Of a stretch of 64,000 bases of DNA, positions 1 to 50,331 are shown piece by piece. A program made the position numbers and the translations under genes. The notes under the pieces were generated by a model. The model saw only the letters and a list, made by a program, of their open reading frames with translations, was not told the origin of the DNA and made no database searches. How positions within the stretch are numbered: the first letter of the stretch is position 1; the number at the start of each line of letters is the position of its first letter. Origin of the DNA: Antennarius striatus (lineage: Eukaryota; Chordata; Actinopteri; Lophiiformes; Antennariidae); NCBI RefSeq assembly GCF_040054535.1, contig NC_090780.1, forward strand, positions 2,872,001-2,936,000, read 5' to 3'.

Positions 1-10548
<10,548 letters not shown>

Positions 10549-17723: not shown

Positions 17724-19708
17724 ATGGATACACATTTAATCTGCAATCTATTCAGGTAAGAATTGCCAATGCTGCGTTACATAATCTAATCGATTGGTAA
17801 TACTGAAGATGTAAATACAATTTTTATCCTCCAAGCTTAAGCATCTAGATTTTATTTTGTCAAATCTGAATCCCTTCCGTCATCATTTTCTTCTGCTTTC
17901 CCTTCTCTTTCAGAGAAAACGCTTGGTTGTGCGTCAGTGTAACGTTTGTGGTCTTGTGGGTCGTTGTGTGGCTGTATAGAGACAGTCTGCAGATTGAGGA
18001 CATTACTGATAAGTACGTGTTTGTGACCGGCTGCGACTCGGGTTTTGGAAACCTGCTATGCAAGAAGCTGGATCGTAGAGGCTTCCATGTCCTGGCTGGC
18101 TGTCTCACAGAAAAGGGGGCTGATGACCTGAAAAGGGTGGCGGGGCCTCATTTGAAGACGGTCCTGCTGGATGTTACCAATCAGGACAGCATACAGAAAG
18201 CCATGGAGTGGACTAAGAAGGAGGTTGGTGACAACGGTGAGAGAAGATAATCATTATTTGAATGTAACTCGACCCAATAAAACATCACAACTTCTGTTAC
18301 AAACGCTGTATTTTGCTTGTTTTTTTTTATTACCCATCATTCCTTTCGTAGGACTTTGGGGCATTGTGAACAATGCTGGACGCTCATTACCCATGGGTCC
18401 TTCTGAGTGGATGAAAGTGGAAGATTTCCACAGCACACTTAAAGTCAACATGACTGGGGTGATCGCCATGACGATAACCTTCCTGCCCCTCATCAAAAAG
18501 GCTAGGGGCCGTATAGTAAACGTGGCATCGGTGCTGGGAAGGGTCGCTGCGAACGGTGGGGGCTACTGCATCTCCAAGTTTGCAGTAGAGTCATTCTCTG
18601 ACTGCCTCAGGTCAGAATTCCACAGCCTCATCAGTTTTTTTTTTTTATTATTTATTTTAGGGCATAATCAATAATTTATTCCATTTATACCTCCTCCTTT
18701 CCTCCAAAAAACATCTTCAATTCTTATTCTGAAGACAAATCATTCCAGGCAGAAGCTTCACAGCTTCCTTTCTAAAAGGGAGATGTGATTATTTATGTTA
18801 CAAAAAAAGAAGAACTATAAAGTAACATGACATTTATAAAAAAATTCTGTTTTCAGGAGAGATATAAACTACTTTGGAATCAACGTGTGCATCATTGAGC
18901 CAGGATTTTTCAAGACAGCAGTGACGAGTCTGGATCCCATCGAGAGGGAGCTGCACCGTCTGTGGAACCAGCTCAGCCCTGAAGTACAAGCCAGCTATGG
19001 AGACAAGTATCTCGATAGGTGTAAGTAGTCCAATGATGTTTACTGGGACCACCTGGAGTCTGGTAAATCTATTCTCTACTGAATGTTTTGGTGAATGAAT
19101 TAAAAATGGAACATTTGCTTAATAAAACAAACCAAAAAAAAAAATCCCTCAACTTACAAATGCTGCAAACATTTGAAGATATTTCTTGTTTTTCTACATT
19201 AACAAAATCCCTTTATTTTCACAAAAAAGAAGTTACTATGCTGTACCTGAAGGCAGCAAATTCGATCAAAAAACCTCTTTCACACACTTCAACAATCAGA
19301 AAATAAATAATACCCTTAAAATTCCTTTGTGTTAAGAATGAGGGAAACTGTCAAAATGCAAATTTTTTCTGTGAGTTTAAAATGATTCCCACTTGTTATA
19401 CTATACACACATTTGCATATGAAGTTAAAAACACTCACTGATATTGAATTTGCTAAATAATATCTTTCAATTAATTCCAATTTCCAGACATCAAGGTCCA
19501 GCGTCTGATCATGAATGCTGTGTGTGACTCTGACCTTACCAAGGTGACAAACTGCATGGAGCACGCTCTGACCGCCGCCCACCCCCGCGCCCGATACAGC
19601 GCCGGCTGGGACGCCAAGCTCCTCTGGATCCCCCTCTCTTATATGCCCTCCTGTGTAGTTGACCTCGGGCTGAAGCTTGTGCTCCCTCGTCCTTCAAAGA
19701 GTGTTTAA
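17724..19708 (+). CDS. rdh5: retinol dehydrogenase, RDH5-type SDR
   Basis: Five exons, 17724-17755, 17914-18236, 18352-18610, 18857-19020 and 19488-19708, join to 332 residues (human RDH5 has 318). The first short exon supplies the ATG ([10 protein letters not shown]). A hydrophobic segment at about residues 15-32 would anchor it in the ER membrane. SDR motifs are present: cofactor loop TGCDSGFG (49-56), NNAG (125-128), catalytic Ser178, and YCISK (190-194, YxxxK). The end of the protein ([20 protein letters not shown], then [13 protein letters not shown]) is closest to RDH5, which oxidises 11-cis-retinol in the visual cycle. Other SDR9C members (RDH16, DHRS9, HSD17B6) are less likely, and adjacency to bloc1s1 supports rdh5. 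The frame is intact throughout. Confidence 0.9.
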
Positions 19709-20514: not shown

Positions 20515-23225
20515 TCACCACAGTTTTGTACACCTTTCCTTTCATTTTAGCTGAAACTCCTCTATCACACACCACACCTGACACTTTCCTCCACCCGTTC
20601 CATCCTGCCTGTACACGCTTCTTCACCTCTTTTCCACACTCTCCATTGCTCTGGACTGTTGAGCCTAAGTACTTAAAATCCTCCACCTTCTTGATCTCTT
20701 CTCCCTGTAACCTCACTCTTCCACTTGGGTCCCTCTCATTCACACACATGTACTCTGTCTTACTGCGGCTAACCTTCATTCCTCTCCTTTCCAGGACAAA
20801 CCTCCACCTCTCTAGCTTCTCCTCCACCTGTTCCCTGCTCTCACTGCAGATCACAATGTCATCTGCAAACATCATAGTCCATGGAGATTCCTGTCTAACC
20901 TCGTCTGTCAGCCTGTCCATCACCATAGCAACAAGAAGGGGCTCAGAGCTGATCCCTGATGCAGTCCCACCTCCACCTTGAACTCCTCTGTCACACCTAC
21001 AGCACACCTCACCACTGTCTTACAGTCCTCATACATGTCCTGCACCGCTCTAACATACTTCTCTGCCACTCCAGACTTCCTCATACAATACCACAGTTCC
21101 TCTCTGGGCACCCTGTCATAAGCTTTCTCCAGATCTACAAAAACACAATGCAGCTCCCTCTGGCCTTCTCTATACTTCTCTATCAACATCCTCAACGCAA
21201 ATACTGCATCTGTAGTACTCTTTTTTGGCATGAAACCATACTGCTGCTCACAAATGTTCACTTCTGCCCTTAGTCTAGCTTCCACTACTCTCTCCCATAA
21301 CTTCATTGTATGGCTCATCAGCTTTATTCCTCTGTAGTTGCCACAACTCTGCACATCTCCCTTGTTCTTAAAAATGGGCACCAGCACACTTCTCCTCCAT
21401 TCCTCAGGCATCTTCTCACTATCTAAGATCCTGTTGAACAACCCAGTCAGAAACTCTACTGCCACCTCTCCTAGACACTTCCAAACCTCTACAGGTATAT
21501 CATCAGGACCGACTGCCTTTCCACTCTTCATCCTCTTCAATGCCCTCCTCACTTCATCCTAACTAATCTTTGCTACATCCTGGTCCACAACAGTCACCTC
21601 TTCTAGTCTTTGTTCTCTCTCATTTTCCACGTTCAGCAATTCTTCAAAGTACTCTTTCCATCTTCCCATCACACTACTGGCACCTGTCAATAGACTTCCA
21701 TCCCTATCCTTAATCACCCTAACCTGCTGCACATCCTTCCCATCTTTGTCTCTGTCTTGCCAACTGGTATAGATCAGTCTCTCCCTCCTTACTGGCCAAC
21801 CTAGCATACAAGTCATCATAAGCTTCTTGTTTGGCCTTTGCTACCTCTACCTTCACCTTACGCTGCATCTCCCTGTACTCCTGTCTACTCTCCTCAGTCC
21901 TCTCAGTGTCCCACTTCTTCTTGGCTAACCTCTTTCTCTGTATACACTCCTGTACCTCCTCATTCCACCACCAAGTCTCCTTATCTACTTTCCTTCCAGA
22001 TGACACACCAAGTACTCTCCTACCTGTCTCCCTGATCACATTAGCTGTAGTTGTCCAGTCATCTGGAAGAACCTCCTGACCACCCAGAGCCTGTCTTAAC
22101 TCCTTCCTAAAAGTCATGCAACACTCTTCCTTTTTCAGCTTCCACCATTTCGTCTTCTGCTCTGCCTTTGCCCTCTTGATCTTCCTCACCACCAGAGTCA
22201 TCCTACACACCACCATCTTATGCTGTTTGGCTACACTCTCACCTACCACTACTTTGCAGTCACTGATCTCTTTCAGGTTACACCGTCTACACAAGATTTA
22301 GTCTACCTGTGTGCTCCTACCTCCACTCTTATAGGTCACCCTATGTTCCTGCCTCTTCTGGAAGAAAGAATTCACTACAGCCATTTCCATCCTTTTTGCA
22401 AAGTCAACTACCATATGTCCTTCTGTGTTCCTCTCCTGGATACCAAACCTGCCCATCACCTCCTCATCACCTCTGTTTCCTGCACCAACATGTCCATTGA
22501 AGTCTGCTCCAATGACAACTCTCTCACTTCTAGGTATGCTCTGCATCACTTCATCAAGGTCCGACCACAATTTTTCCTTCTCCTCCAGCTCACATCCTAC
22601 CTGTGGAGCATACCCACTAACAACATTGAACATCACACCTTCTATTTCTAGCTTCAGACTCATCACTCTATCCGACACTCTTTTTACCTCCAGGACATTC
22701 CTAACAAACTCCTCCTTCAAGATAACTCCTACTCCATTTCTCTTCCCATCTACACTATAATAGAACAACTTGAACCCTGCTCCTAAACTTCTAGCCTTGC
22801 TACCTTTCCACCTGGTCTCCTGGACACACAGTATGTCTACCTTCCTTCTCTGCATCATGTCAACCAACTCTCTACCTTTTCCTGTCATAGTTCCAACATT
22901 CAACGTCCCTACTCTCAGTCCTATACTCTTGGTGTTCCTCTTCTCTCTCTTCGTGCGAACGCACTTTCCTCCTCTCCTTCTTCGACCAACAGTAATCCAA
23001 TTTCCACCGGCGCCCTGTAGGTCAACAGCGCCGATGGCGGTCGTTGTTAACCCGGGCCTCGACCGATCCGGTATGGAAGTCATAGGTTTGATTTGCATCT
23101 TTGATTTGGCAAAAGTTTTACGCCGGATGCCCTTCCTGACGCAACCCTCTGTATTTATCCGGGCTTGGGACCGGCACAATAAGACACTGGCTTGTGTCCT
23201 CTTGTGGCTACATTATTCAACTTCC
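20515..23225 (-). mobile_element. RTE-type non-LTR retrotransposon, broken (copy 1)
   Basis: Minus-strand pieces in order: an AP-endonuclease domain (23179-22298; VGTLNVGTMTGKGRELVDMM, QETRW, GADFNGHVG), a linker (22294-21719), and a reverse transcriptase (21552-20515; [39 protein letters not shown], and the FADD catalytic motif). The frame is broken by an in-frame stop near 22,296, a frameshift near 21,800, a stop near 21,556 and a frameshift near 20,970, so it is dead. The 5' region (23,097-23,200) is shared with the SINE at 9,663-9,903. Homology ends near 20,515, after KVYKTVVRP, where unrelated sequence begins; the normal RTE 3' tail is absent. RTE clade is assigned from the endonuclease/RT layout and from the tail of copy 2. 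Confidence 0.85.
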
Positions 23226-39155: not shown

Positions 39156-40147
39156 CATGCATCTGGAAAGAAAGTACATAAGGAGTCTTGGTGGTAGAAT
39201 GAGGAGGTACAGGAGTGTATACAGAGAAAGAGGTTAGCTAAGAAGAAGTGGGACACTGAGAGGACTGAGGAGAGTAGACAGGAGTACAGGGAGATGCAGC
39301 GTAAGGTGAAGGTAGAGGTAGCAAAGGCCAAACAAGAAGCTTCTGATGACTGGAATGCTATGTTGGACAGTAAGGAGGGAGAGACTGATCTATACAGGTT
39401 GGCAAGACAGAGACAAAGATGGGAAGGATGTGCAGCAGGTCAGGGTGATTAAGGATAGGGATGGAAGTCTATTGACAGGTGCCAGTAGTGTGATGGGAAG
39501 ATGGAAAGAGTACTTTGAAGAGTTGATGAACATGGAAAATGAGAGACAACAAAGACTAGAAGAGGTTACTGTTGTGGACCAGGAAGTAGCAAAGATTAGT
39601 CAGGATGAAGTGAGGAGGGCATTGAAGAGGATGAAGAGTGTAAAGGCAGTCGGTCCTGATGATATACCTGTAGAGGTTTGGAAGTGTCTAGGAGAGGTGG
39701 CAGTAGAGTTTCTGACTGGGTTGTTCAACAGGATCTTAGATAGTGAGAAGATGCCTGAGGAATGGAGGAGAAGTGTGCTGGTGCCCATTTTTAAGAACAA
39801 GGGAGATGTGCAGAGTTGTGGCAACTACAGAGGAATAAAGCTGATGAGCCATACAATGAAGTTATGGGAAAGAGTAGTGGAAGCTAGTCTAAGGGCAGAA
39901 GTGAACATTTGTGAGCAGCAGTATGGTTTCATGCCAAAAAAGAGTACTACAGATGCAGTATTTTCTTTGAGTATGTTGATAGAGAAGTACAGAGAAGGCC
40001 AGAGGGAGCTGCATTGTGTTTTTGTAGATCTGGAGAAAGCTGATGAGTTGGTGTGAGTGAAGAGGATGCAGAGGACAGGGTTAGATGGAGGCAATTGATT
40101 CACTGTTGTGACCCCTGAAGGGAAAAGCCCAAAGGAAAAGAAGGAGG
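39156..40147 (+). mobile_element. RTE retrotransposon copy 2, 5'-truncated and internally deleted
   Basis: Flanked by a perfect 20-bp target duplication, ATTCTACATACATGCACATA, at 39136-39155 and 40148-40167. Homology to copy 1 starts in the linker near 39,162 and continues into the reverse transcriptase. A 236-codon frame (39346-40056) is open but ends just after DLEKA, where sequence jumps to the element's 3' end (GTGACCCCTGAAGGGAAAAG). The RT palm and FADD motif are therefore missing. The clean duplication shows this was one LINE-mediated insertion. Confidence 0.88.
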
Positions 40148-42151: not shown

Positions 42152-44177
42152 TAGTGATGGCAGTTCGACACTGAAGCTTCGGTACACGTTTCAAACCCTA
42201 GAACTACAATTCAATAGAACCACCGCTTCGGAGCTTGCTTTGGGGCGGAAGATAGTCACGTGACAATGACGTCCAAAGCAGCAACTGCTTCGTTTCCCGA
42301 GGGAACCACCTGACTGGTTCGCGGTCCAAGGATGTCATTCATTGACACGCCTTCTAACTTGTGACAGTTTTGAATGTTAGCACCAAAACTCCTTTGTATA
42401 CGCTCTGGAAAATGCACCGTTTGTGGGTTTTTGTCGGAGAGTTGTTATTGCTGTTATTATTGCGTTGCGTTGCTTTTTTGGATCGTTGGATCATTATGGA
42501 GCAGTCAGGGAGACAGGTTGTTCTGAAATGTGGGAACACTTCATTCTGATCTCTGCTGGTAAGGTAGGTGTAATGTCACATCTGTAATGAAGGAAGTTAC
42601 ATGTCTAACAGTAACTAGCTATAGCTATGGTCTACCATCCGTGTATATTGATTAATGATAATAACTTATGCTGTTTATGTGACAACTTTATAGATTCAAA
42701 CTGTATTATTATTTAAAAATAATTTTCTGTCCAGGTCTGGTTGGTGTGTTCTGCTGAACTGAAGTATCATGGGGATACTTCCTCCATGATTAGACACTTC
42801 ACTGCCAAACATGGAGCTGCTGGAAATCAGGGGACCCCAAATCAAGGTTGGTTATATTATTATATTATTAGACACACTAACACAATGTGGTCTGGCTGTG
42901 TTTCATGAGTTGTAGGCCAGCTTAACTTAAGTGTAGTTTCACATTAATCTTCTGGTATTATTTTAATCATTTACTTTTTATTTCTGTCTATTTGTCCTAG
43001 TTGACCGGAAGCGAGAGCTGGATGAAGCTCTGGTAAATCTGGTGGTGAAAGACTCGCAGCCTTTTTCTATCGTGGATGACTGTGGCTTCAAGGAGTTTGT
43101 GGGATTGCTTGATCCCTCATATGTTCTTCCATCCAGGCAAGCTCTCAAGAGCATGGTGCTTCAGAAATATGAGGTAGAGAAGACCAAGGCCAAGGCTGTA
43201 ATGGTGAGGGTGGAGGCTGTGAGTCTCACTGCTGATATGTGGACATCTTTGGGAAACATGGAGGCCTGTCTTGCAGTGACCTGCCACTACATGGAGGACC
43301 CGATGAAGCTGGCAACAGTGCTCCTGGGAGTGGTGCCGTTCCCTAAAGCACATACTGCAGCTAACACCAGTGCAGCCACAACATCTCTGATGGAGGAATG
43401 GAGACTTGAGGGAAAAGTGAACTCATTTGTGACTGATTTTTTTCCAAAAAGTTAAAATGCTGATGCTTGTTGTCGTGTTTGTCTTTGAGATAGGAACCTT
43501 TGGGAAACGCTGGACCGAGATACGTCGGATTCAAGGAGGGCAAGGAATGCTACTGCATACGCAACTGTGGAGGTGCAGCGGTACTTTACCGAACCACCAC
43601 TGGCCAAGTCAGAAGACCCAGTGGATTAATGGAAGAACCACAAGAATGTTTACCCAAATTTGTTTAAACTGGCAAAAAAAATGTATGCACCCCGGCTTCA
43701 TCTGTTCCATGTGAACGAGTCTTCTCCAAATGTGGAGAAATTGTCACTAAGAAACAGACTTAATCCAAATACTGTGGAAAAAATAATGCATCTCAATAAA
43801 AATCTTTGACCACCCTCATCCCAAATTATCAGCCCTTCCATAGTTGCACAAGCACACCAAACCAATACCAGATTTTCCCTGCATTCGCTCCTCAACAACA
43901 CTCCACACATTTGTCAATTATTATAAGTGCATAGAATATAATATTTAGTCTAGGGTATATCAAAATTTAAAATGAAAGATACTTTAAGTCCAAGCAAAAA
44001 GGAGATGATTGTGCATGTGTGTAGTTGAAAGCTTCTTGTCAAACTAACTTGCAGTTCAGGGTTTGAACTTCGCCAGGAGAGGTCACTATAACTGAAGCTT
44101 CGAGTAATGAACCCATTTTTGAACCAGTTGGCTCAAATGATTCAGGGCTTCACAAAAGCTTCATTTGCCCATCACTA
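42152..44177 (+). mobile_element. hAT transposon, 2,026 bp, with 8-bp target duplications; broken ZBED-type transposase
   Basis: Perfect target duplication CTCCTTGA at 42144-42151 and 44178-44185. Termini TAGTGATGGCAG... and the reverse complement ending ...TTTGCCCATCACTA, both followed by GAAGCTT-type motifs. Inside, on the plus strand: the start of a BED zinc finger (EMWEHF near 42,524; then a Cys and RHFTAKH spacing at 42,740-42,830), a transposase N-terminal and catalytic-core start (43,003-43,455, with LTADMWTS), then after a gap the C-terminal dimerisation domain (EVQRYFTEPPLAKSEDP to NTVEKIMHLNKNL, 43,560-43,808) with frame breaks. Most of the catalytic core is deleted, so it cannot be autonomous. 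Confidence 0.88.
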
Positions 44178-46607: not shown

Positions 46608-47344
46608 AGATTTTAATGCATCTGCTATAAAGAAGTTACATTTCTGTCACCCAACAACACCATGAAGACAATTTGTGAACTTTGGGTTGAAATATATACC
46701 AGTATTTTACTTGGTAATACGCATATGTACTCTGTCGATCTCTGCCAACTTCAAATATTAATAATAATAAACATTCCTGTAAGAAAAATAAAGTAAATGA
46801 TTTTGTGATTGATATTTTGACACAGCTTTGGTCCAGCAATAAATCACCATGACAGTAATAATTGATTTATAGACAATTGATTTAAATTCATAAATTAAAA
46901 TTCCTGGAGAAAGCCCTCCATAATTTGATAGGTTGTAGCATGACCCTTGACCCTCCCTCCAAAAAGTTTTATGGAATTCATTTGGAACTACAGTAATAGG
47001 TGAAATATGTCCACAAATCCTCTGTGGCAGCAATAACTATCACTGTCCTACAACTTAATAATAATTCTGATCACAATAAGAATTACTTAATCTGACGTAA
47101 TTTCTAATTTTAATATTTGATGAACTGTATTTATTATTATATCTTACTCTGACCTTTATAACTCATAGCACTTTAGCACTTCAATTTGTTTTTCTCAGAG
47201 GCAGAAATAATATAATTTATACATTTTTAAAAACCGTCAACAGTCCAAATGCAAAACATCAAACAGATAAACTGATTTCAAACACTTATTTATTATGAGT
47301 TTGATAGTGAATGGTTTGATCTGGGTATTAATGGCAGATTGAGT
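46608..47344. other. AT-rich spacer between dnajb13-like locus and elastase copy B
   Basis: AATAAA-type hexamers near 46,766 and 46,787 could serve the dnajb13-like transcript; TTTATT at 47,289-47,294 is a minus-strand polyadenylation signal for elastase copy B. Nothing else was seen. Confidence 0.45.
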
Positions 47345-50220
47345 TCAACTGCTCGTCACCTGAAAGAAGAAAATGTCATATATTTAGAATATCACACAAC
47401 TGCACATTCATTCAGTTATGATTATTTGGTTTAGTGAGTTACACATTTATTTTTTTTTTCAAATAAACTTTTTCATTCACTGACCGAGTTTATCCAGGTG
47501 ATGTAGGCAGAGACGCGGGTGAAGACAGTCGGCTTCTGGGGAGTGTTACATCCCATACCAGACACGAAGCTGGCTATCCCATGGACGTACCAACGGTTGT
47601 TAACTTTGCAGCTCAGAGGACCACCAAAGTCCCCCTACATGGAGAAATCACACACAGAGATAACGCTACAAAGGGCTTTGTTGTTGTGTGTGGGCTTTTT
47701 TAAATTAATAGCCTTTCATTACGGGTGATTTGCTTATCTTTTGTAGCCTCACCAAGAGTGATGGAGATGAATGTGTGCAGTAAAATGTAATAATTGCATA
47801 TTCTTCTTTCATCGGTTTTAACTTTGTAAAATTTTCAAACAGTTTCTTTCAGTGGGAATTCACCACTATAGATGTTTTTTTTTACTTAATGCCATGGAAA
47901 CAATGAAAATTAGAGCCATAAGCATTATTGTGAATAATATGAATATGTATCATGTTTTTGTTTGTTTGGGGGGGGTGGGGGGGGTTCCCCACATTTGTTT
48001 AAAAAACCACTTAAATTTTGGAGAAATTCCACAGATATTTTTCACTTTGTCACTCAGTTTTGTGGTCGTGCAGCGCACTCACATTGCACCCTGACTGAGA
48101 TCCACCTCCAGCACAGATCATGGTGGTCTTGATGGTGCTGCCCCACCATCCAGCACTGGTGCACGTCTTGTGGTCAACAATGGGGAGGTAGGCTTGAATC
48201 ATTCTGTTGGCAATGCTTCCACCAGCTGGAGGCACACAGAAGAGAGATTAACAAAGAGAAGACAGCATACCTTATAGTCAGAAATGTGAGTTTAAGGAGT
48301 CCTTTAACTCACTGGACGTCTGTCCATATCCAGTGATGTAACAAGGGTGGTTATGAGGAAGGATCTCGCCAAAAGGAGGAAGGGCGATCACATTCACGTA
48401 GGATGTCAATGAGACATCAGACGATAGCTTCAACAGGGCAATGTCATTACTAGTGGTAAAAGAATAGACCTGAAAATTATTATTCTTTCACTGAATGACC
48501 GCATAAACCTAAAGATATGGTTTAACTTAAAGGCTGTTTAACCAAAATGTTTGCAGTCATTAAACATTTGAACCATCTACTGATGACCCACCCAGAGGAG
48601 ATGCTGTTACTGTTCCATTCAGGATGGACATAAATATTGGCGATACTCCTGTATTGCTCTACTCCATGGCTGCTGTGTAGAATGAGATCACCGAGGACCA
48701 CACGGATAGACCTGGGACTGTTTCACAGCGGATGACTTTATTTGTTATAGTAATACATAATAATACATACGAATAAAAGGAGAAAAAAAAATTGAATACG
48801 AATTTGTGAGGATGATGTGTGATGAAACAAAACCCAAGACAAAGACACCATGATGTATAACTGAGGAGAACCAATAGGATAATATGATAACAGCAATCAC
48901 ATCTGATACCTGTCCAAACACTGAGCAGCAGTTAAGACCCATCTTCTCCAGATCAGTGTTCCCCCACAGAAATGGTGATAGTTGCCATTAGATAAGTACT
49001 GAAGAGAGACCTGAAGTAGGAATCAGAAAAATAACGTCACAGAAAAAGGATTTTTTTTAAAAAGTCTTAGAAACATATTACAGAGAGGAAAATGAAAGTT
49101 GTTAAATGAAGTATAAGACAAAGCTCCCTATAGGTGAGTGAATTTGCCAATCTAGAAAAAAAAGTTTACAAAATTTTACAAAGAACAGAATGATCAACAG
49201 GAAGTGAGGTCACATTGCATGGAAACTTAGTGATCATCCTTCTCACATGATTTATCACCTCACTAGAAAGTTTCATAATAATTTTATGGCCTCAGGTTTT
49301 TTCATGACTTCTTCATCATTACATCATGTTCATTTTCCAGTCTGATAAAGCAGGCACCAGCTGCAAACCTCACACCCTGTGAGCTGTCATTGGCTGGGGG
49401 CTTCACACCCACCGCTCAAAGGTTGATGCCCAGATATGTTCCTCAACATAAACATAAAAATAAAAATAATACAGACAGATGGAAGAACGTCTGCACCAAC
49501 AGACTCTGCACACTTCTATAGATTACATGTGCCTACTCATATTGTTTTAGAGAAATCCTAAACTTTATTCTTTAAAGTGATATTCCTTGAAAGATTCTTT
49601 GACTCTCTCTTTTGAGTTGTGTTGAAAAGATCGTCTCCACTCATCAGAATACTTAAAATGAGACCACAGCCAGCAATGGTTCTGGTATTTATTTTGCTGT
49701 GAATGAAGTGTGAAATCATTAATATAGCAATTTATTCACAACTTCCATTTGTGGGAATGTAGCTTCATAATTCATGAACGGACATCAGAGTGATATCCGT
49801 CTTCTTTTTTGTATCAGCAAGTAAACAAATAAGTTTAACTTCACCAAATGTCAAACTGTTAATTTCAGAATCATTGACTTACATTGTTTTTCTTGATACA
49901 AGAAAGACTTGTCAGAAAAAGTACAAAGATAAATTGCATGAAGAAGCGTGTTTGACGATGATAAATGTACCTGCCAAGGCCAAAAACTGGAATGAGACAC
50001 ATAATCACCTCCGACAACTCTTCCTGCAGCATTTCTCTGCACGTTACTGGATGTGAGCTCCAGCTCAGCCAGCGCTGAGGCACATAGGAGGGGGGTTAGA
50101 ACACGGTTCCTCCTGCTACATATTCTTGGTTGCTCGGTAAAAGCAAAACATTTTTTTTAGTAGCGATTATTTTATCTTACCTGTGACCGTGAGTGTGGTG
50201 AAAAGCAGAAACACGAGCAT
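47345..50220 (-). CDS. elastase 1-like, catalytically dead (copy B), candidate pseudoprotease
   Basis: Eight exons, 50220-50181, 50074-49971, 49010-48910, 48711-48592, 48449-48313, 48225-48083, 47634-47485 and 47359-47345, join to 269 residues without a stop or frameshift; every border is GT/AG and all phases equal those of copies A and C. A signal peptide ([12 protein letters not shown]), activation site AGR/VVGG and eight cysteines are kept. Of the triad, Asp124 (NDIALL) remains, but His becomes Gln78 (TAAQC, codon 48921-48923) and Ser becomes Phe218 (GDFGGP, codon 47626-47628). Other unusual changes are TGYG for TGWG and WRRW before the lost His. Without His and Ser it cannot hydrolyse peptides by the S1 mechanism. 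It has its own TATA box, CACCTG box and polyadenylation signal. It may be a secreted, folded non-enzyme (decoy, inhibitor, binding partner) or a gene early in decay. Confidence 0.9.
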
Positions 50221-50260: not shown

Positions 50261-50267
50261 TTTTATA
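50261..50267 (-). promoter_or_regulatory. TATA box of elastase copy B
   Basis: TATAAAA on the minus strand, 41 bp upstream of the ATG at 50220, placed as in the other two copies. Confidence 0.7.
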
Positions 50268-50325: not shown

Positions 50326-50331
50326 CACCTG
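50326..50331. promoter_or_regulatory. CACCTG E-box upstream of elastase copy B (PTF1-type)
   Basis: GGCACCTGTGGTTCTTCTCA: an E-box followed by a pyrimidine-rich stretch, close to the layout of the known ELA1 PTF1 element. It lies about 60 bp from the TATA box. Confidence 0.5.

Follow-up and report, generated by a model that had tools for sequence, protein, structure and literature searches.

It may be asked whether a pancreatic elastase gene that has kept its complete structure but lost two of its three catalytic residues encodes a retained protein, or whether it is a gene in the early stages of decay. This question is raised by copy B, a CELA1-type gene found in the window, i.e., the whole stretch of 64,000 nucleotides analyzed here (G000:C5:2872001-2936000, from a genome of 548 Mb in 42 contigs). 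Together with two other CELA1-type genes of the minus strand, E1 and E3, B forms a head-to-tail series, and each of the three presents eight exons, equal intron phases, and GT-AG introns. The exons, splice sites, and codons of B were rebuilt from the raw sequence, and the features considered are the following (window positions):

50220-47345, minus strand: copy B, CELA1-type gene, eight exons from ATG to TGA, 269 aa
50220-50181, 50074-49971, 49010-48910, 48711-48592, minus strand: exons 1-4 of B
48449-48313, 48225-48083, 47634-47485, 47359-47345, minus strand: exons 5-8 of B
48921-48923, minus strand: codon 57 of B, CAG (Gln) replacing the catalytic His; CAC in E1 and E3
48313-48449, minus strand: exon 5 of B, carrying the retained catalytic Asp102 (GAC)
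47626-47628, minus strand: codon 195 of B, TTT (Phe) replacing the catalytic Ser; TCC in E1, TCT in E3
53181-50708, minus strand: E1, CELA1-type neighbor, 268 aa, full triad (His CAC, Asp GAC, Ser TCC)
33332-27866, minus strand: E3, second CELA1-type neighbor, 270 aa, full triad (His CAC, Asp GAC, Ser TCT)

Gene structure and loss of the catalytic residues

A preliminary description of this DNA had reported an intact eight-exon gene with its splice sites, activation site, eight cysteines, and stop, and the rebuilt model confirmed it in full: the coding sequence comprised 810 bases including the stop, with no internal stops, all seven introns followed the GT..AG rule, and the protein presented a pro-segment, the activation site R/VVGG, and eight cysteines in the mature chain. 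The signal peptide, also reported, was judged present by eye. The replacements of His by Gln and of Ser by Phe were likewise read directly from the minus-strand codons. The statement that one base suffices for each change held for the Ser codon only when TCT, as in E3, was taken as the starting point, since from the TCC of E1 two bases are needed.

The unprocessed-pseudogene marks (stops, frameshifts, and lost splice sites) were absent from B. Its product matched the PF00089 Trypsin profile across the whole domain (205.2 bits, residues 34-263), as a chymotrypsin-like S1A homologue, and retained Asp102, the oxyanion glycine Gly193, Asp194, Ser189, Cys191, Ser214, the SFVS strand, and T226. At the three positions that define an active S1A peptidase (His57, Asp102, and Ser195), B carried Gln57, Asp102, and Phe195. 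This combination of lost catalytic residues and retained fold residues is the one expected of a putative serine pseudoprotease. When E1, E3, and B were compared with the window by tblastn at E values up to 1, the three genes alone were recovered, with no hidden alternative exon carrying the His or the Ser.

Both codons rest on a single assembly, and sequencing or assembly errors in an otherwise ordinary active elastase might be suspected. This is highly improbable, since two separate substitutions in two exons would have had to fall on catalytic codons, and B differs from its neighbors throughout without any frameshift.

Regarding the surroundings, the earlier statement that the tandem neighbors on either side keep the triad was correct as to the codons of E1 and E3, but E3 is separated from B by ~14 kb that include transposon pieces. 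No extra CELA1 copy was present near the cluster among the contig-5 matches listed. Non-LTR retrotransposon pieces were observed at window positions 20923-23212 (minus strand) and 39322-40053 (plus strand), both with RVT_1 and the former also with an endonuclease, and a hAT-type transposase-like piece was found between E3 and B at 42967-43452 (plus strand), in which the Hermes DNA-binding domain scored 20.2 bits, slightly below the Pfam cut-off of 20.5. The flanking genes comprised a ubiquitin ligase, of which pieces of the WW and HECT domains were recognized (1510-4142, minus strand), and a short-chain dehydrogenase (17870-18671, plus strand).

Relationship and age of copy B

The position of B among elastases was examined in an alignment of 13 rows, made up of the three window genes, eight further elastase-type genes from the same genome, and the proteins of salmon and pig. 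A single fork (support 96/98) united B with E1, E3, and the two CELA1 proteins from salmon and pig; the branching order inside this fork was not recovered. This grouping, together with an elastase-type pocket (S189, SFVS, T226), places it in the CELA1 subfamily. Over the mature domain, the identity of B was 60% with E1 and 63% with E3, while E1 and E3 shared 76% with each other and 75-76% each with salmon elastase. To judge from this, B is a tandem paralogue of pancreatic elastase 1 of considerable age and no fresh copy, because just 60-63% identity to E1 and E3 remains. Moreover, an open frame of 269 codons at 37-40% difference in mature residues from the neighbors is not the chance residue of a long drift. 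When B was compared with viral contigs, no relatives were found.

The closest solved relatives of B were 1elt (salmon elastase) and 8b04 (pig CELA1), 58% and 55% identical, respectively; the first of these suggests a bony fish as the source of the DNA. Compared with these, B kept the eight cysteines, the activation site, the S1 pocket, Asp102, and Asp194, but lost His57 and Ser195, carried Phe41 and Tyr141, and was shorter by two residues in the 60s loop, where exons 3 and 4 meet, and longer by one residue ahead of WPWQ. An origin from the branch of azurocidin (neutrophil elastase/proteinase 3) was considered and set aside, since B grouped with CELA1 in a tree that had no azurocidin row and had CELA1 proteins as its closest matches of known structure. 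Nor was an azurocidin-like basicity observed, as the net charge of B (+3, pI 8.4) lay below those of E1 (+6) and E3 (+7). According to the available text of PMC4646688, azurocidin is an inactive member of an elastase cluster, confined to placental mammals and expressed in neutrophils, in which it differs from B, a CELA1-type protein less basic than its neighbors.

Selection and neutral decay

The comparison of dN/dS between B and its neighbors, suggested in the preliminary description, was carried out with a purpose-written codon model on E1, B, and E3 (266 codons) and on the same genes plus C7 and C3 (247 codons). The omega of the B branch was 0.34 with three genes and 0.39 with five, against backgrounds of 0.20 and 0.16, and reached 0.35 and 0.41, respectively, when omega was free on every branch; B thus evolved at 0.34-0.41, about twice the background. 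An omega of 1 on the B branch was rejected over the whole branch in both sets (LRT 16.4 with three genes and 4.9 with five), while a single omega for all branches was rejected with five genes (LRT 6.3) and not with three (LRT 3.5, not significant). Purifying selection was demonstrated as an average across the B branch, under a constraint clearly weaker than that on E1 and E3. The value below 1 is averaged over the branch and may stem mostly from the time before catalysis was lost, and the dS of this branch (0.5-0.7, or 0.9 with one omega) is possibly saturated. Positive selection was not detected on B (branch-site LRT of 0.97, six genes, 238 codons).

The raised omega would also be expected if B were a redundant elastase, deprived of catalysis only recently and now on its way to a pseudogene, its frame intact for want of time, a course of events that we regard as less likely but as a serious alternative. 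The replacements in B agree with it to some extent, as they were more radical than those in the neighbors: the mean BLOSUM62 score of specific replacements was +0.24 in B (67 replacements, on the longest branch), +0.67 in E1 (24), and +0.94 in E3 (17), the neutral expectation being -0.45 to -0.63, and scores of at least 0 were found for 69%, 92%, and 94% of them, respectively. These means place B between its neighbors and neutral drift. On the other hand, B kept 56 of the 62 columns invariant in the other 12 elastases, while two catalytic ones were gone, its six departures being H57Q, S195F, W141Y, L to M, S to T, and G to N. C7 also departed at six of the 62 columns, none of them catalytic and with the triad retained, and the remaining rows at 0 to 3. 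Among the 26 changes of B at CELA1-invariant positions, only T41F, H72L, and S195F scored negatively in BLOSUM62 (scored by hand).

Codon usage was also altered. The GC3 of B was 0.556 versus 0.67-0.76 in seven other CELA1/CELA2-like genes, which would fit a recent loss as well; the C20 family was equally low (0.53-0.55), with a stop absent in two of its three genes. By a rough formula, ~0.27 neutral changes per site would be required for the drop in B, and a frame free of stops would not survive nearly as many without selection, which hints at a long-altered codon regime, perhaps with lower expression, in a gene whose protein would still be retained.

How long B may have evolved without constraint was estimated by modeling its branch as a segment under constraint followed by a neutral tail. 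The best tail was ~0.12 substitutions per site, and tails from 0 to ~0.22 lay within two log units of the optimum. In 2000 trials of neutral evolution of B, the frame remained stop-free in 54% at 0.02 substitutions per site, 24% at 0.05, 7% at 0.10, and 2% at 0.15, so that the best tail would leave it open in ~5% of trials (interpolated between 0.10 and 0.15); with indels added at an assumed 0.1 per substitution, the stop-free fractions became far smaller. This argues against a recent loss at the best estimate, but a short tail of 0.02-0.03, within ~1.2 log units of the optimum (a zero tail lay within 1.7), fits it, since 40-54% of the simulated frames were then stop-free. Taken together, the omega tests and the simulations of the stop-free frame make a long-dead gene unlikely. 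The retained Asp102 and S1 pocket can likewise be read as remnants of a recent loss, although Asp102 is also retained in known pseudoproteases, such as haptoglobin. The sister C20 family shows what fate a recent loss would lead to: in C20b (L014, G000:C20:6252500-6260000, bases 1541-1714), an elastase-like sequence, a stop follows directly after the catalytic Ser, beside GDS. Its sisters C20a and C20c are without that stop.

Promoter and 3′ signals

The regions upstream and downstream of B harbored the following signals:

50261-50267, minus strand: TATA-like box, 47 bases upstream of the ATG
50326-50331, minus strand: CAGGTG E-box, within a stretch common to E1 and, less exactly, E3
47289-47294, minus strand: AATAAA, 50 bases past the stop

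E1, B, and E3 were all preceded by a TATA-like box and, farther upstream, shared related sequence around CACAGGTG or CACAGTTG. The upstream local alignment scores were matched by shuffled sequences in 7 of 300 cases for E1-B, 15 of 300 for B-E3, and none of 300 for E1-E3. This likeness to E1 and E3 is modest evidence that B may have retained its promoter. In the upstream comparison of the three genes, an E-box and TC-box pair was present before E1 only, and not before B or E3.

A probable retained pseudoprotease and its possible roles

In light of these results, B is probably, though by no means certainly, a retained and secreted serine pseudoprotease under altered and partly relaxed constraint. 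The preliminary description had also regarded it as a cela1 duplicate that kept its fold and secretion and lost catalysis, which fits the sequence and the selection tests. The changed role proposed there fared less well, because the weaker constraint, with its doubled omega, more radical replacements, and lower GC3, could be seen in an early dying gene as well.

We infer that B is expressed, folds, is inactive, and may have a role. It would be made and secreted as E1 and E3 are, and trypsin would be able to cut R/VVGG; the fold should still mature after activation, because Asp194 and the new N-terminus are present. The S1 mechanism needs the nucleophile at 195 and the general base at 57 for cleavage, and with Gln57 and Phe195 no acyl-enzyme would be formed, so that B should not cleave peptides. 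Since B keeps the S1 pocket, Asp102, Ser214, and the oxyanion glycine, a residual catalytic or esterase-like function achieved by other means might be imagined, but it is hardly credible with both the nucleophile and the general base gone. The retained pseudoprotease would instead most likely act by binding, as a non-catalytic partner or ligand in the pancreatic secretion, through its surface and an altered cleft (Phe41, Gln57, and Phe195).

Haptoglobin, protein Z, and HGF/MSP, which are multidomain plasma or signaling proteins from other S1 branches than B, resemble it in having the S1 fold with the catalytic residues gone. They lost catalysis and act by binding, and serine pseudoproteases serve as ligands, cofactors, and scaffolds, as stated in the available part of PMC13194640.

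Two roles may be envisaged by analogy. First, B could be a partner of other zymogens, as is the elastase-like subunit of bovine procarboxypeptidase A-S6. In fact, 1pyt (proproteinase E) and 1fon (procarboxypeptidase A-S6) stood high among the solved relatives of B, and procarboxypeptidase A-S6 subunit III/proproteinase E are structural partners of another zymogen, the bovine elastase-like protein being that of procarboxypeptidase A. However, subunit III owes its inactivity to a shortened N-terminus and not to triad loss, whereas B has an intact N-terminus with R/VVGG and does not correspond to it in this respect. Second, B could act as a zymogen-like signal. The accessible text of PMC8249909 reports that zebrafish chymotrypsinogen B1 (ctrb1), rendered catalytically dead, uncleavable, or both, increased beta-cells to ~33-34 versus 30, and that wild-type cela1 mRNA likewise raised beta-cell number. 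It is conceivable, although improbable, that B is a long-lived fish pseudo-elastase working as a non-proteolytic messenger or zymogen partner of the exocrine pancreas, a natural fixed form of the dead-zymogen signal. The suggestion that B is an inhibitor decoy was weakened for serpins, since their trap requires a covalent link to Ser195 (PMC7914634, in the part available), which makes a serpin decoy less likely.

Pancreatic proteases are usually viewed as purely digestive, yet a beta-cell effect independent of catalysis has been reported in zebrafish (PMC8249909, same portion). For testing this idea, an elastase that has naturally lost its catalytic residues and lies next to two full-triad copies would be a clean tool. 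If B is retained, a pseudoprotease would have arisen inside a digestive gene cluster; if it is dying, an early step of gene loss would have been caught, in which the catalytic residues went before the frame broke. As for other fishes, the available text of PMC11539086 describes the triad of pangasius elastase 1 as conserved and its motifs as showing "slight variations", and that of PMC4232633 merely lists cela1 of the sole as a digestive gene. Titles and abstract openings yielded no report of an inactive fish CELA1, and the print record may still hold one.

Other S1 genes apparently lacking catalytic residues

A partial survey of the genome covered 61 loci, as stretches picked from the listed matches (seven of them shortened), and window positions 27001-54000; the profile was built from the 13-row alignment including B, and domain scores under 12 were dropped. 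His occupied column 57 in 70 of 81 rows, and the other 11 were judged as five real changes (B, L051, L054, L061, and L053) and six exon-end run-overs. Column 195 held Ser in 71 of 87 rows; the 16 exceptions comprised seven real changes (Phe in B, Ala in L051 and L017, Tyr in L054, Asp in L008, Thr in L053 and L022), one ambiguous case (L056), and eight run-overs. Asp was found at column 102 in 75 of 78 rows. Within this partial survey, both His57 and Ser195 were apparently lost in B, L051, L054, and L053, the last three without rebuilt gene models. Judged by their residues, pseudoprotease-like S1 genes are not rare in this genome, because three further apparent double-loss loci exist beside B. 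Among elastase-type genes, B alone lost both residues, as E1, E3, and the eight others (approximate models with N-termini not rebuilt) keep His57 and Ser195.

Some of these loci deserve a brief description. L051 (G000:C16:1106000-1110500) presented TAAQC (H57Q), GDAGGP (S195A), and a hydrophobic C-terminal tail, and its top solved relatives were enteropeptidases, with TMPRSS6 and prostasin close after. L054 (G000:C16:20897000-20902000) presented TAANC (H57N) and GDYGGP (S195Y), and shares with B the aromatic nature of residue 195. S195A was observed in L017, whose His exon was unscored in the survey, S195D in L008, S195T with H57Q in L053, and S195T in L022; L017, L008, and L053 are presumably reminiscent of haptoglobin, a factor VII/protein Z relative, and protein Z, respectively. 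Finally, in L061 (G000:C22:72500-75500), a domain carrying AAHC and GDSGGP was followed downstream by an S1 domain in which TAQQC (H57Q) was read.
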